Below are positions 13,549-17,637 of a stretch of DNA of 64,000 nucleotides, piece by piece. Under the pieces are notes generated by a model that saw only the letters and a list, made by a program, of their open reading frames with translations, was not told where the DNA came from and did no database searches. The position numbers and the translations under genes are program-made. Positions within the stretch are counted from its first letter, which is position 1; the number at the start of each line of letters is the position of its first letter. Origin of the DNA: Conyzicola lurida (GTDB lineage: Bacteria; Actinomycetota; Actinomycetes; Actinomycetales; Microbacteriaceae); assembly GCF_014204935.1 (NCBI RefSeq), contig NZ_JACHMJ010000001.1, forward strand, positions 2,356,001 through 2,420,000, in the 5' to 3' direction.

Positions 13549-14091
13549 CTAGCCGCTCGATTCCGATCGGACGTTGCCATCTCGTGGCCACAACGCCGAG
13601 CGACGTTCGACGAGGATCGTGTCGCGCCACACCCCGGCTTCAGGGCCGTATCCCATCAGAGCGATGCGCTCGCGCCGCCCGACCTCTCGGAAGCCATGGC
13701 GCTGGTGCAGTTGCAGGCTCGCAATGTTCTCAGGGAAGATGCTCGATTGGATCGTCCAGATCCCGTGCCGTTCGGCAATGTCGATGAGGCCGGCCAGCAG
13801 CAGGCCGCCGACGCCACGGCCACGCGCGGTGGCCGCGACGTAGACGGAGTGTTCGACCACGCCCGAGTACACGGGGCGACCCGATACGGGTGACGCGGCA
13901 GCCCAGCCGAGAACGCCGGAATCGTCGACGGCGACGATTCGCAAGTCCGGATGCTTGCCAGCGTCGAACCCTTCCCAGGTCGGCGGGCTGGATTCGAAGG
14001 TGGCGTGGCCGCTGTCGATGCCTTCGCGGTAGATCGCCTCGACGGCGGGCCAGTCGTCCTCTCCAAGCGGGCGGACGAACGGCGCGGTCAT
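13549..14091 (-). CDS. arsN1: GNAT acetyltransferase of the phosphinothricin/arsinothricin type (ArsN1)
   Basis: 180 aa. It contains AIYREGIDSGHATFESSPPTW at its start region, the PVYSGVVEHSVYVAATARGRGVG acetyl-CoA pyrophosphate loop in two parts, and LHQRHGFREVGRR near the end, all typical of PPT N-acetyltransferases. These enzymes acetylate the amino group of phosphinothricin, methionine sulfoximine or the arsenical antibiotic arsinothricin. It overlaps the arsR stop by 4 bp (ATGA), which points to the ArsN1 role rather than herbicide resistance. Substrate choice is inferred from this linkage. Confidence 0.82.
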   Translation of the reverse strand: MTAPFVRPLGEDDWPAVEAIYREGIDSGHATFESSPPTWEGFDAGKHPDLRIVAVDDSGVLGWAAASPVSGRPVYSGVVEHSVYVAATARGRGVGGLLLAGLIDIAERHGIWTIQSSIFPENIASLQLHQRHGFREVGRRERIALMGYGPEAGVWRDTILVERRSALWPRDGNVRSESSG

Positions 14092-14438
14092 GAGGAGAGC
14101 AAGGCTCGCGCGCTCGAGTCGAGGGCTTCGGGGACGACCCGGTAGTAGGCCCACCTGCCGCGCTGCTCCCGGGTGGCCAGACCCGCGGCGACGAGCTTGC
14201 TCATGTGGTGCGAGACGGTCGGCTGCGACAGTCCGACCGGCTCGGTGAGGTCGCAGATGCAGGCCTCGCCACCGTCGCTCGCTGCGATCAAGGACAGAAG
14301 GCGGACGCGCGTCGGATCGCCGAGTGCCTTGAACACGCGGGCGATACTCTCCGCCTGGTCGGCATCGAGAGCCCCTCCGGTCACGGTGGCGCAGCACGCA
14401 GAGTCGCGTGCGGTCAGGAGGGGGAGCCCGATGGTCAT
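14088..14438 (-). CDS. arsR: ArsR-family arsenite-responsive repressor
   Basis: 116 aa winged helix with recognition region GLSQPTVSHHMSKLVAAGL. Cysteines at 15-16 (ACCAT) and 60/62 (EACICDLT) match the pattern of Corynebacterium glutamicum ArsR, where two N-terminal Cys and one from the helix-turn-helix side bind As(III). The first gene of an arsR-arsN1 operon (4-bp overlap), divergent from the ArsO-like gene. A 16-bp perfect palindrome between the two divergent genes is the likely operator. A CxC near residue 60 is also seen in E. coli-type ArsR, so which thiols bind is not certain. Confidence 0.92.
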   Translation of the reverse strand: MTIGLPLLTARDSACCATVTGGALDADQAESIARVFKALGDPTRVRLLSLIAASDGGEACICDLTEPVGLSQPTVSHHMSKLVAAGLATREQRGRWAYYRVVPEALDSSARALLSS

Positions 14439-14459
14439 ACATCCATTCTGCCAGCCATA

Positions 14460-14483
14460 TTGACAAATGTCGATGCATCGACA
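14460..14483. promoter_or_regulatory. ArsR operator (16-bp palindrome) with -35-like TTGACA
   Basis: TGTCGATGCATCGACA at 14468-14483 is a perfect palindrome in the divergent region between arsR and the ArsO-like gene. A TTGACA hexamer abuts it at 14460-14465. Binding here would block both directions. The palindrome differs completely from the operators of the neighbouring arsC and fusion genes. Confidence 0.7.
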
Positions 14484-14523
14484 AACCTCGATATGTCATC
14501 ACGCTTCGACCGAGGAGAACGCC

Positions 14524-15840
14524 ATGAACGACCTGCCCGTAGTTGTCATCGGGGCGGGCCCCCAGGGCCTGGCCGCCGCCGCGCACCTTCTCGAGCGCGG
14601 CGATTCACCCCTGGTGCTCGAAGCGGGCGACGGACCCGCCGCGGCCGTTTCCGAGTGGGGTCACGTCCGCCTGTTCTCCGGCTGGAGCGAACTCGTCGAC
14701 GCCGCTGCCGCCCGTCTTCTCGCGCAGACCGGCTGGGAATCGCCGACAACGGGCTATCCGACCGGTGCGCAGTGGATCTCGTCGTACCTGGCGCCGCTCG
14801 CGACAGCACTGGGCGACAGCATTCGTTACGGCGCCAGGGTGACCGGCGTCGGACGCATGGGCCGTGACCGACTCGTCGATGAGGGACGCGCGGAGCAGCC
14901 GTTCACGGTCCACATCATCGATGCCGACGGCAACGAATCGCGCATCACCGCCCGCGCCGTCATCGACGCGTCGGGAACGTGGTCGCAGCCGAACCCCGCG
15001 GGCGCAGACGGCCTCCCGGGCCAGGGCGAGCGAGCGGCGTCAGAGCGCATCTCTTACCGGATCCCCGACTTCGCACACCCGGCGCCGTTCGCCGGCAAGC
15101 ACACGATCGTCGTCGGTAGCGGCCACTCGGCCGCGACCGCAGTGAACGAGCTTGCCCGGATAGCCAAGCGCCACCCGGAGACCCGCATCACCTGGGCGCT
15201 GCGCCGCGGCTCCGTGGGCAACACGTTCGGCGGCGGCGACGCAGACGAACTCCCGGCGCGTGGCGCCCTCGGCACTCGCGCCCGTCAGGCAGTCGATGCG
15301 GGGCTGGTCGAACTCGTCACCGGGTTCCGCGTGGAGTCCGTCATCAGCACCGAGCAGGGCGCCGTGCTCGTATCCGAGGACGGCCGCGAACTCGCCGCCG
15401 CCGACGTCGTCGTCGTGCTGGCCGGATTCCGTCCCGACCTCTCCTTCCTGTCGGAGATCCGGCTAGAACTCGATCACACCCTGCAGGCGCCGTCGCGGAT
15501 CGCCGCCGAGGTCGATCCGAACGCCCACAGCTGCGGCTCCGTCCGCGCCACCGGCGCGAAAGATCTCGCTCAGCCCGAGACGGACTTCTACATCGTCGGC
15601 TCCAAGTCCTACGGGCGCGCACCGACGTTCTTAGCGATGACCGGATACGAGCAGGTGCGCAGCGTGGCGGCCGCCCTCACCGGCGACCAGGCAGCAGCAG
15701 CGAGGGTCGAGTTGGTGCTCCCAGACACCGGCGTGTGCGGCGGAGCCGGAACGTTCGACGGTCTCGGCGACGCATCTGCCGCGTGCTGCAGCCCGACGCC
15801 CACCCTTGTCCGACTCGGCCGGACACCGATGACGGCGTAG
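14524..15840 (+). CDS. arsO: ArsO-like FAD/NAD(P)-dependent flavoprotein monooxygenase
   Basis: 438 aa. The N-terminal VVVIGAGPQGLAAAAHLLER binds FAD, and HTIVVGSGHSAATAVNELA (about residue 195-215) binds NAD(P)H. The C-terminus has Cys in VCGGAG and a CC pair in SAACCSPT, as in flavoproteins encoded in actinobacterial ars clusters. ATG 14524 follows GAGGAGAA. It is divergent from arsR and shares its operator. ArsO's reaction is poorly defined in the literature; an oxidation linked to organoarsenicals or thiol redox is possible. The call rests on context plus the flavoprotein architecture. Confidence 0.75.
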   Translation: MNDLPVVVIGAGPQGLAAAAHLLERGDSPLVLEAGDGPAAAVSEWGHVRLFSGWSELVDAAAARLLAQTGWESPTTGYPTGAQWISSYLAPLATALGDSIRYGARVTGVGRMGRDRLVDEGRAEQPFTVHIIDADGNESRITARAVIDASGTWSQPNPAGADGLPGQGERAASERISYRIPDFAHPAPFAGKHTIVVGSGHSAATAVNELARIAKRHPETRITWALRRGSVGNTFGGGDADELPARGALGTRARQAVDAGLVELVTGFRVESVISTEQGAVLVSEDGRELAAADVVVVLAGFRPDLSFLSEIRLELDHTLQAPSRIAAEVDPNAHSCGSVRATGAKDLAQPETDFYIVGSKSYGRAPTFLAMTGYEQVRSVAAALTGDQAAAARVELVLPDTGVCGGAGTFDGLGDASAACCSPTPTLVRLGRTPMTA

Positions 15841-15976: not shown

Positions 15977-16387
15977 TCACGCCTTCTCGGGCAACAGCTC
16001 GGCGAGCAGCACCTGGATGCGTGCCTTGATGTCGTCCCGGATCGGTCGCACCTCGTCGATACTCTTTCCCTTGGGGTCGACCAGGTCCCAGTCCTCGTAG
16101 CGCTTGCCCGGGAAGATGGGGCATACATCGCCGCAGCCCATCGTGATCACGACATCGGAATCGCGCACCTGTTCGGTGGTCATCAACTGCGGGATGCCGT
16201 GACTGATGTCGATGCCCTCTTCCGCCATCGCGGCGATGGCCATCGGATTGATCTGGTCACCGGGCTCGGATCCGCCGGAACGGACCTCGACGGCCCCGTC
16301 CGAGAGTGCGCGCATGTAGCCGGCGGCCATCTGGGAGCGTCCCGCATTGTGGATGCAGACGAAGAGGACGGTGGGTTTGTCGGTCAT
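15977..16387 (-). CDS. arsC: Arsenate reductase, low-molecular-weight phosphatase type
   Basis: 136 aa. The phosphatase loop VCIHNAGRS gives nucleophile Cys11 and Arg17. Cys85 and Cys89 in MGCGDVCP are candidates for the redox relay, and WDLVDP supplies the general acid. It reduces As(V) to As(III) in the cytosol, with thioredoxin or mycothiol as electron source (not resolvable here). GAGGAA precedes the ATG. Its promoter has CATAGA-N6-TCTATG, the same operator as the ArsR-ArsC fusion gene 70 bp upstream, so the fusion protein probably controls it. Confidence 0.93.
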   Translation of the reverse strand: MTDKPTVLFVCIHNAGRSQMAAGYMRALSDGAVEVRSGGSEPGDQINPMAIAAMAEEGIDISHGIPQLMTTEQVRDSDVVITMGCGDVCPIFPGKRYEDWDLVDPKGKSIDEVRPIRDDIKARIQVLLAELLPEKA

Positions 16388-16415: not shown

Positions 16416-16433
16416 CATAGACCGTCATCTATG
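16416..16433. promoter_or_regulatory. ArsR-type operator before arsC (CATAGA-N6-TCTATG)
   Basis: Inverted repeat CATAGA (16416-16421) and TCTATG (16428-16433), extended by one G/C pair, in the 72-bp gap before arsC. The same 6-6-6 layout recurs at 17357-17374. Confidence 0.65.
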
Positions 16434-16459: not shown

Positions 16460-17359
16460 TCACCGCGAGTTCACCTCGAGGGTTCCGATCAATTCGCGAA
16501 CCCGCGCCTCGATGTCGTCCCGGATGCCGCGCACGCGCGCCAAGGGCAGGCCAACCGGGTCCTCGAGATCCCAGTCGAGGTAGAGCCGGCCGGGGTAGAC
16601 CGGACAGGCGTCGCCGCAGCCCATTGTGATGACGATGTCCGCCGCCCGCACGACCTCGTCTGTCAACGGCTTCGGATACTCGCCCCCGATCGGAACGCCG
16701 ATCTCGTCGAGAGCCGAGACCACGACCGACCGCACCGCGCCCGCCGGGGCGGATCCCGCAGTTCTGACATGCACGCTATCGCCCGCGAGATGACGGAGGA
16801 TGCCGGCAGCCATCTGCGATCGCCCCGCATTCTGTACGCACACGAACAGCACCTCGGGCCTGCGCCCTGCGCGCGGCGGGCCCTCGACAATAAGAGCACT
16901 GAGACGGTCGGCGGCGAATTGAGACGTGAGCGACGACAGATAGCGGGGGGCGTGAGACTGCTGCGAGAGCAGCGCGTAGCTCTCGCGCACGTAGCGCTCG
17001 ACGGTCTCGGCAGCGAACGTGCCCGCGAACCGCGTCGCCAGATCAACGGAAATCCGGCCGAGGATCTCCTCGGTCATCTCCGTATCCGGTGTGCCCTGCA
17101 CAAGCTCCGAGATGCGGTCGGCCTGGTCGGGAGCGACCGAATACCAGACGGAACGACCCTCGGGGTGACGTTCGAGCAGTCCTTCGTCGAATAGTGCTTT
17201 GAGATGGTGGCTGACCGTGGGCTGGCGGAGGTTGAGCTCCCTCGCCAGCAGGCTGACCATCTGGCGACCGTCGGCGCTATTCATAATCAGCGACATGATG
17301 CGCGATCTGGTCGGATCGCCCAGAAGTTTCAGCTCGGTCGTCGATCCCGCGATTCCCAT
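16460..17359 (-). CDS. ArsR-ArsC fusion protein (repressor plus arsenate reductase)
   Basis: 299 aa. Residues 1-90 form an ArsR winged helix (LNLRQPTVSHHLKALFDEGL). Residues about 93-160 form a helical linker of the type seen before some actinobacterial ArsC domains (DLATRFAGTFAAETVERYV). Residues 168-299 form an ArsC domain with Cys174 and Arg180 in VCVQNAGRS and a MGCGDACP motif. There is no cysteine before residue 174, so the repressor part cannot bind As(III) in the usual way. The start at 17359 has no ribosome site; TAGACT lies 7 nt upstream, suggesting a leaderless mRNA. The gene's own operator overlaps its start codon. Confidence 0.9.
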   Translation of the reverse strand: MGIAGSTTELKLLGDPTRSRIMSLIMNSADGRQMVSLLARELNLRQPTVSHHLKALFDEGLLERHPEGRSVWYSVAPDQADRISELVQGTPDTEMTEEILGRISVDLATRFAGTFAAETVERYVRESYALLSQQSHAPRYLSSLTSQFAADRLSALIVEGPPRAGRRPEVLFVCVQNAGRSQMAAGILRHLAGDSVHVRTAGSAPAGAVRSVVVSALDEIGVPIGGEYPKPLTDEVVRAADIVITMGCGDACPVYPGRLYLDWDLEDPVGLPLARVRGIRDDIEARVRELIGTLEVNSR

Positions 17360-17374
17360 AGACGAGAGTCTATG
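17357..17374. promoter_or_regulatory. Operator overlapping the -10 box and start of the ArsR-ArsC gene
   Basis: CATAGACGAGAGTCTATG is a perfect 7-4-7 inverted repeat, containing the CATAGA-N6-TCTATG pattern found before arsC. It covers both the start codon (17357-17359, read on the minus strand) and the TAGACT -10 hexamer (17367-17372). Autorepression by steric block is expected. Confidence 0.7.
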
Positions 17375-17559: not shown

Positions 17560-17564
17560 TGTTG

Positions 17565-17637
17565 TGACCCCAACCGGATTCGAACCGGTGTTACCGCCGT
17601 GAGAGGGCAGCGTACTAGGCCGCTATACGATGGGGCC
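17565..17637 (-). tRNA. tRNA-Glu (CTC)
   Basis: 73 nt with a 7-bp acceptor stem (GGCCCCA with TGGGGTC, one G-T pair), discriminator A, T-arm GGTTCGAATCC and anticodon loop CCTCTCA giving CTC. CCA is not encoded. A promoter lies upstream (17653-17681) and a terminator directly downstream, so it is a single-tRNA unit. Confidence 0.95.

Follow-up and report, generated by a model that had tools for sequence, protein, structure and literature searches.

The reductase domain as a possible arsenic sensor in a class of ArsR-ArsC fusions whose repressor part lacks the CxC motif

How can a repressor of the ArsR family respond to arsenic if its DNA-binding part contains no cysteine? The As(III)-responsive ArsR types named in the literature available here bind arsenite through cysteines of the repressor itself; the available text of PMC11868830 distinguishes three earlier site types and a fourth, all made up of Cys. 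The question is raised by a gene in a 64,000-nucleotide stretch of Conyzicola lurida DNA (contig NZ_JACHMJ010000001.1, positions 2,356,001 to 2,420,000), hereafter the window. The gene lies on the minus strand at 16460..17359, with its ATG at 17357-17359, and encodes a 299-amino-acid protein with an ArsR and an ArsC domain in one open frame, i.e. an ArsRC fusion, of the type that we call class I below. Residues 1-90 (17090..17359; all features of the fusion are on the minus strand) form a Cys-free ArsR/SmtB winged-helix domain, which was recognized by PF01022 (HTH_5, residues 15-63, 43.8 bits, cut-off 22) and NF033788 (65.3 bits, cut-off 55), and whose helices and strands are present in the structure model. 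A three-helix domain follows in residues 100-156 (16892..17062; PF21234, 68.3 bits, cut-off 27), then the ArsC domain in residues 170-290 (16490..16852; Pfam LMWPc, above cut-off).

An alignment of 45 rows identified the three catalytic cysteines of the ArsC domain as C174 (16838..16840), which is invariant and belongs to the C-x5-R motif, C248 (16616..16618) and C252 (16604..16606). The C-x5-R motif, two distal Cys and the three-helix domain are features of thioredoxin-type arsenate reductases of the Cg_ArsC1' kind, and the scores against the curated arsenate reductase models stayed below their cut-offs (TIGR02689, 68 vs. 157.6 bits; TIGR02691, 53.5 vs. 174.3; PRK13530, 57.4 vs. 215). In the ArsR half the same alignment showed D15, T17, R18, V35, Q46-T48, S50-H52, G68 and R69 to be invariant, and by eye no cluster resembling a metal site could be discerned among these residues. 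The result rows of the structure comparison were taken up by the ArsC domain, and the ArsR part was barely probed by it.

According to the initial annotation, the first 173 residues contain no Cys and the only thiols are those of the C-terminal reductase. Both statements proved correct: C174, C248 and C252, all in ArsC, are the only cysteines of the protein. The Cys ligands of the site types set out in the accessible part of PMC11868830 are thus absent from residues 1-173, and none of these sites is possible in the ArsR part of the fusion. For a single protein the lack is unremarkable, because at the Cys rate of 0.59%, found in 26 long, real-looking ORFs of the window, the chance of one Cys-free stretch of 173 residues is 0.36. 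The Cys count of this one protein was therefore rejected as evidence.

Relatives were drawn from 299 genomes of the family, 394 of the class, 396 of the order and 396 of the phylum, and from the best 80 of 584 named loci. It must be noted that all fusion counts refer to fetched loci, taken with the best matches first, they are not a census, and the figures for the family and the order hold among the matches listed. Near-full-length matches at E 1e-28 or better occurred, among the matches listed, in at least 40 of the 299 family genomes, including the source genome. The 272 loci that were listed as matches and fetched yielded 181 distinct fused open frames: 83 of class I (the window type, window protein included), 92 of class II and 6 others. 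The classes were defined by profile score, independently of Cys, and kinship was ignored in the counts; no fusion count includes the weak HTH-LMWPc open frames L129, L153 and L161. By profile score the window protein belongs to class I; it has no CxC and there is no ACR3 match in its genome, thus it does not qualify as class II.

CxC, the thiol motif of ArsRs, was found among the matches listed in none of the 83 class I fusions, in 81 of the 92 class II fusions and in none of the six others, and in the same set of matches the catalytic triad was complete in 83/83, 89/92 and 6/6, respectively. Class I also kept the C-x5-R and DW..DP motifs in all 83 sequences. Ahead of the catalytic Cys the 83 class I proteins, window protein included, contain four Cys in 13,708 residues, where about 81 would be expected if kinship is ignored; one of the four occupies the first CxC position (L055, QCVT). 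The ArsR part was Cys-free in 79 of the 83 listed matches. Cys are, however, rare in these proteins altogether: 79 of the 83 have exactly three, the remainder four, i.e. in 79 there is no Cys anywhere outside the triad, and selective loss of Cys from the ArsR part was rejected as an explanation. Since class I proteins are mostly without any Cys beyond the triad, it is the missing CxC that is meaningful, and the compared sequences indicate that this absence is a clade trait of class I beyond chance. The initial annotation had suggested looking for Cys ahead of the ArsC domain in other ArsR-ArsC proteins, and had considered that a Cys conserved in close homologues would mark the window copy as degenerate; no such conserved Cys was found among the class I relatives. 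Free ArsCs with the three-helix domain also have exactly three Cys (18/18). The fused and the free three-helix ArsCs (83 and 18 sequences) differ at V175, L188, R189, R238 and other positions, and no mechanism emerged from these differences.

The 11 class II fusions without CxC (of 92) map to six changes on a tree, of which at least four are forced by well-supported branches. The tree comprised all 92 class II and 6 of the 83 class I fusions, was obtained by a quick search, and has L144 and L263 on long branches; as it included the CxC columns, it should cluster the rows without CxC and thus lower the number of changes. Loss of CxC appears to be the simpler reading, because CxC is common among class II fusions and unfused ArsRs alike; the tree does not separate loss from gain. 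Three class II fusions (L244, L247, L249) lack both CxC and the third catalytic Cys (CGDAV or CGDSV). They account for all class II triad misses, thus absence of CxC from the ArsR part can coincide with an incomplete triad.

The operator that the initial annotation had placed at the fusion start is a perfect palindrome, CATAGAC-N4-GTCTATG, at 17357..17374, over the start codon, as expected for an ArsR/SmtB repressor acting at its own promoter, and the predicted site is conserved in the clade. A near-copy at 16416..16433 is a second predicted operator, upstream of a free arsC gene. In a scan of the 3.64-Mb genome these two were the only sites with 0 or 1 mismatch, and one further site had 2; as with up to two mismatches a backward control pattern matched as often as the operator pattern (5 and 3), only exact sites count. 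The pattern ATAGAC-N4-RTCTAT was counted in the 724,264 bases of the 83 class I loci. Of its 117 occurrences 62 were at a fusion start and 55 elsewhere, and each of these 55 extra sites preceded, by 35-128 nt, the ArsC domain of a different open frame on the same strand. A control pattern with reversed halves had no site in the same 724,264 bases. The strict operator was absent from the fusion start in 21 of the 83 loci, and 16 of 83 had none with a looser pattern. In 66 fusion-start sites collected with a slightly looser pattern, the T after ATAGAC, a position that the pattern leaves open, and the final G, which completes the ATG, were present in all 66, and the flanks varied. TAGACT in the left half of the first operator, seven bases before the ATG, resembles the -10 element of a leaderless transcript and may serve as such. 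The class I operator was not found within 220 nt upstream of any of the 92 class II fusions.

The free arsC (15977..16387, minus strand, 136 aa, LMWPc 76.7 bits), with the second operator upstream of it, is the predicted second target of the fusion. Further along the window there is a canonical ArsR with the motif EACICDL (14088..14438, minus strand), a separate regulator, flanked on one side by a GNAT gene and on the other by a gene for an ArsO-like FAD enzyme (14467..15840, plus strand; its true start is perhaps downstream of 14467); the names ArsN1 and ArsO were below the NCBIfam cut-offs. The region between canonical arsR and the ArsO-like gene (14439-14475) has its own type of palindrome, TATTGAC-N4-GTCGATG at 14458..14475, thus two arsenic regulons may adjoin here. 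The pattern wTYGAC-N4-GTCRAw, as in this window site, was present in 30 of 62 divergent arsR/arsO intergenic regions, possible duplicates included, and the class I operator in none of the 62. Directly beyond the fusion lies a tRNA-Glu gene (17564-17637). An island duplication of the tRNA-Glu end was considered and rejected: its end has a single copy in the 64-kb window, which shows no sign of island boundaries.

The company of the fusion genes also differs between the classes. Among the listed matches with loci longer than 8 kb, an ACR3 gene accompanied 1 of 53 in class I vs. 16 of 24 in class II, and 50 of the 53 class I loci had a second ArsC open frame; class I thus appears to go with the reductase gene arsC, not with the exporter. 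A Rhodococcus ACR3 query, which found ACR3 in the 16 class II loci, had no match in the source genome, a negative that by itself says little, and two weaker SBF-family matches in this genome were rejected as ACR3, as no ACR3 model matched them. The genome has one ArsB-family match (PF02040; L278, G000:C1:3323510-3324565), far from the window, which is an uncertain candidate for the arsenite exporter of this strain.

A related arrangement was found among unfused ArsRs, 18 of 136 of which were Cys-free over the domain and generous flanks. Sixteen unfused ArsRs without CxC scored at least 99 bits with the class I profile; one (L100) is a fusion truncated at a contig end and was not counted. The other 15 all had an ArsC-domain gene directly downstream on the same strand, 13 of them within 541-758 nt, and two (L200, L225) when longer sequence was taken. 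These two-gene loci are L063, L072, L079, L093, L120, L133, L137, L139, L140, L148, L176, L178, L180, L225/L275 and L200/L276. As a control, an ArsC domain followed only 1 of 75 CxC-bearing unfused ArsRs with 1000 nt of downstream sequence. In the 14 loci whose second product was read (all except L180), it has an HTH-like N-terminus, a three-helix domain and an ArsC domain; in the 12 pairs inspected singly, this N-terminus scored 0 to 58 bits as an ArsR. The two products of such a pair may possibly form a mixed dimer in which the ArsR-like domain of one partner has decayed. Three unfused ArsRs, all below 99 bits, are exceptions to the pairing: in the 1000 nt downstream of L195 (1501-1770; Cys-free, 88 bits against the class I profile) no ArsC domain was found, and the same applies to L141 and L191, which lack CxC and have other Cys. 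A fusion-type operator was considered for 14 unfused Cys-free arsR genes and rejected, as none was found upstream of them. A tree of ArsR domains (30 of the 83 class I, 25 of the 92 class II, the 14 unfused Cys-free ArsRs and 35 of 86 CxC ArsRs), based on too few columns, did not reject class I and the 14 unfused ArsRs as one clade (p-AU 0.72); it does not show this clade.

We think that in class I the ArsC domain is the sensory half, and that arsenate reduction is under the control of the fusion, separately from the nearby ArsR of the As(III) type; on the comparative data we give this reading a probability of about 0.5. Three observations favour ArsC as the sensor: CxC is absent from all 83 class I fusions while the triad is kept in all 83, CxC changed repeatedly in class II, and the CxC-less unfused ArsRs of the window type are paired with an ArsC gene in 15 of 15 cases. 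The window protein would then repress through a DNA-binding half devoid of an arsenic site and sense through the fused thioredoxin-type reductase. When arsenic is absent, the fusion, presumably as a dimer, would occupy the palindromes at its own start and before the free arsC, over the element resembling a -10 box. Arsenate entering the cell would bind to, or be turned over by, the reductase domain, and what matters would be either occupancy of the phosphate loop or the redox state (thiol or disulfide) of C174-C248-C252. The change would be relayed through the three-helix linker, DNA would be released, arsC would be produced when arsenate is present, and thioredoxin would reset the fusion, leaving As(III) to the canonical CxC ArsR next door with its different operator. 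Because class I is associated with arsC and not with an exporter, we favour arsenate or its turnover as the probable signal over arsenite bound by the triad, although the sequences separate the two poorly. The initial annotation had proposed ArsC as the sensor, and the comparison favours it as the sensory part; between arsenate, arsenite at the triad and the disulfide state as the signal it does not decide.

Some observations count against sensing by ArsC. Conservation of the triad also fits a plain enzyme, and the free three-helix ArsCs have their three Cys too, three class II fusions have neither CxC nor the third Cys, L195, L141 and L191 stand alone, and some loci have no strict operator at the start. 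There is also an argument that few Cys suffice to bind As(III): in the portion of PMC13236881 at hand, an ArsR with one Cys is reported to be similar in As(III) affinity to one with three, and other residues were suggested as possible contributors. More tentatively, it is possible that this lineage handed sensing to the enzyme, a thiol-free DNA-binding part gated by occupancy or turnover of the reductase making a direct arsenate switch for arsC, both in fused form and in the two-gene form (a thiol-free ArsR and a partner with decayed HTH, three-helix and ArsC domains), and that class II moved the same way several times. If so, there is a clade of repressors that are read out through catalysis or substrate binding, which would explain induction of arsC by arsenate itself, beyond its reduced product, and could be turned into a biosensor component specific for arsenate. 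Operators and targets are predicted with enough precision to be put to a direct test.

Among the alternatives, it is conceivable, if unlikely, that the repressor does not answer to arsenic through ArsC at all, being constitutive or obeying another signal or partner, with ArsC merely a tethered enzyme. Some members of the ArsR family do not sense arsenic, and L244, L247 and L249 suggest that some class II fusions manage without either thiol site. However, all 55 extra operators precede an arsC, and this explanation leaves the tie of CxC-less ArsRs to ArsC (by fusion in 83, in tandem in 15 of 15, against 1 of 75 in the control) unaccounted for.

We consider it rather unlikely that the triad merely binds As(III) through its three thiols, in the manner of an ArsR site that has been relocated, and that neither arsenate nor turnover plays a part. 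Both C-x5-R and DW..DP are kept in 83/83, which mere As(III) binding would not require, and in reductases of this fold the first Cys lies in the phosphate loop. What speaks for relocation is that the fusion has exactly three Cys, and that the known As(III) sites of ArsRs, as presented in the available sections of PMC11868830, use three Cys whose positions vary between types.

A local supply, with As(III) produced by the fused reductase and then bound by the ArsR part of that very polypeptide, is very improbable here. The Paracoccus ArsRC, a fusion of the same general kind, is so summarized in the accessible text of PMC9479143, non-Cys residues may help As(III) binding (PMC13236881, as far as available), and the scheme is plausible for class II, with CxC in 81 of 92. 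In the window protein, and likewise in 79 of 83 class I fusions, there is no Cys in the ArsR part to capture As(III), and CxC occurs in none, so supply to such a site was rejected for class I. The weakest alternative, a degenerate copy that has lost regulation, may come to mind when a single protein encoded beside a canonical ArsR lacks the expected Cys, but all 83 class I proteins share the lack of CxC, their HTH residues are invariant and their operator sites conserved, which leaves it practically no room, and it was rejected.

It is instructive to compare the class I fusions with systems that are already known. ArsRC2 of Microbacterium A33 is reportedly a negative regulator of its own operon, in which the fusion is said to be accompanied by a thioredoxin system and ACR3. 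The gene set reported for strain A33 resembles that of a Microbacterium plasmid in our sample (L274:3515-7325), on which trxB, trxA and an ACR3-like gene (identified by eye) are found together with arsC and a class II fusion; both this fusion and the ACR3-like gene appear frame-broken. Since the A33 gene order resembles that of class II, whose members mostly carry CxC, A33 ArsRC2 probably belongs to class II. Like this protein, the other actinobacterial fusions share with the window protein the presence of ArsR and ArsC in one polypeptide. Cg_ArsC1' of Corynebacterium glutamicum (PDB 3t38, 199 residues in the structure) matches only residues 94-298 of the fusion, including the three-helix domain, and has no ArsR domain.

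ArsR-ArsC fusions are, judging from the portions of the papers available, on record from several actinobacterial genera (PMC6514093, clusters C4 and C7; PMC6205960) and from Leptospirillum (PMC4443643); the available part of PMC6514093 contains no discussion of Cys in their ArsR part. In a literature search that covered few subscription papers we met with no description of fusions whose ArsR is Cys-free, of the operator pair or of the two-gene form, and nothing on arsenic sensing without Cys. According to the initial annotation, a repressor gated by its own enzyme would be a new mode of sensing. The broader idea, arsenate sensing by an ArsR-ArsC fusion, has already been published for the Paracoccus ArsRC; the Cys-free class and its regulon are what we did not find in print in this partly accessible literature. 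The Paracoccus protein, with improved arsenate sensing (Chen 2022, Environ. Microbiol., doi 10.1111/1462-2920.15957, as summarized in the part of PMC9479143 available), resembles the window protein in having ArsR fused to ArsC, and differs from it in that As(III) is said to bind to ArsR. Two further repressors, known here from parts of their reports, are similar in other respects. TtSmtB of Thermus thermophilus, of the ArsR family, is reported to prefer arsenate and to control arsC, but it is unfused and has Cys that are proposed to coordinate metal (PMC5658604). ArsRM of Brevundimonas is an ArsR fused to an arsenic enzyme and binds its own promoter; unlike in the window protein, the enzyme is a methyltransferase, and the proposed As(III) site includes C134 (PMC10190100).
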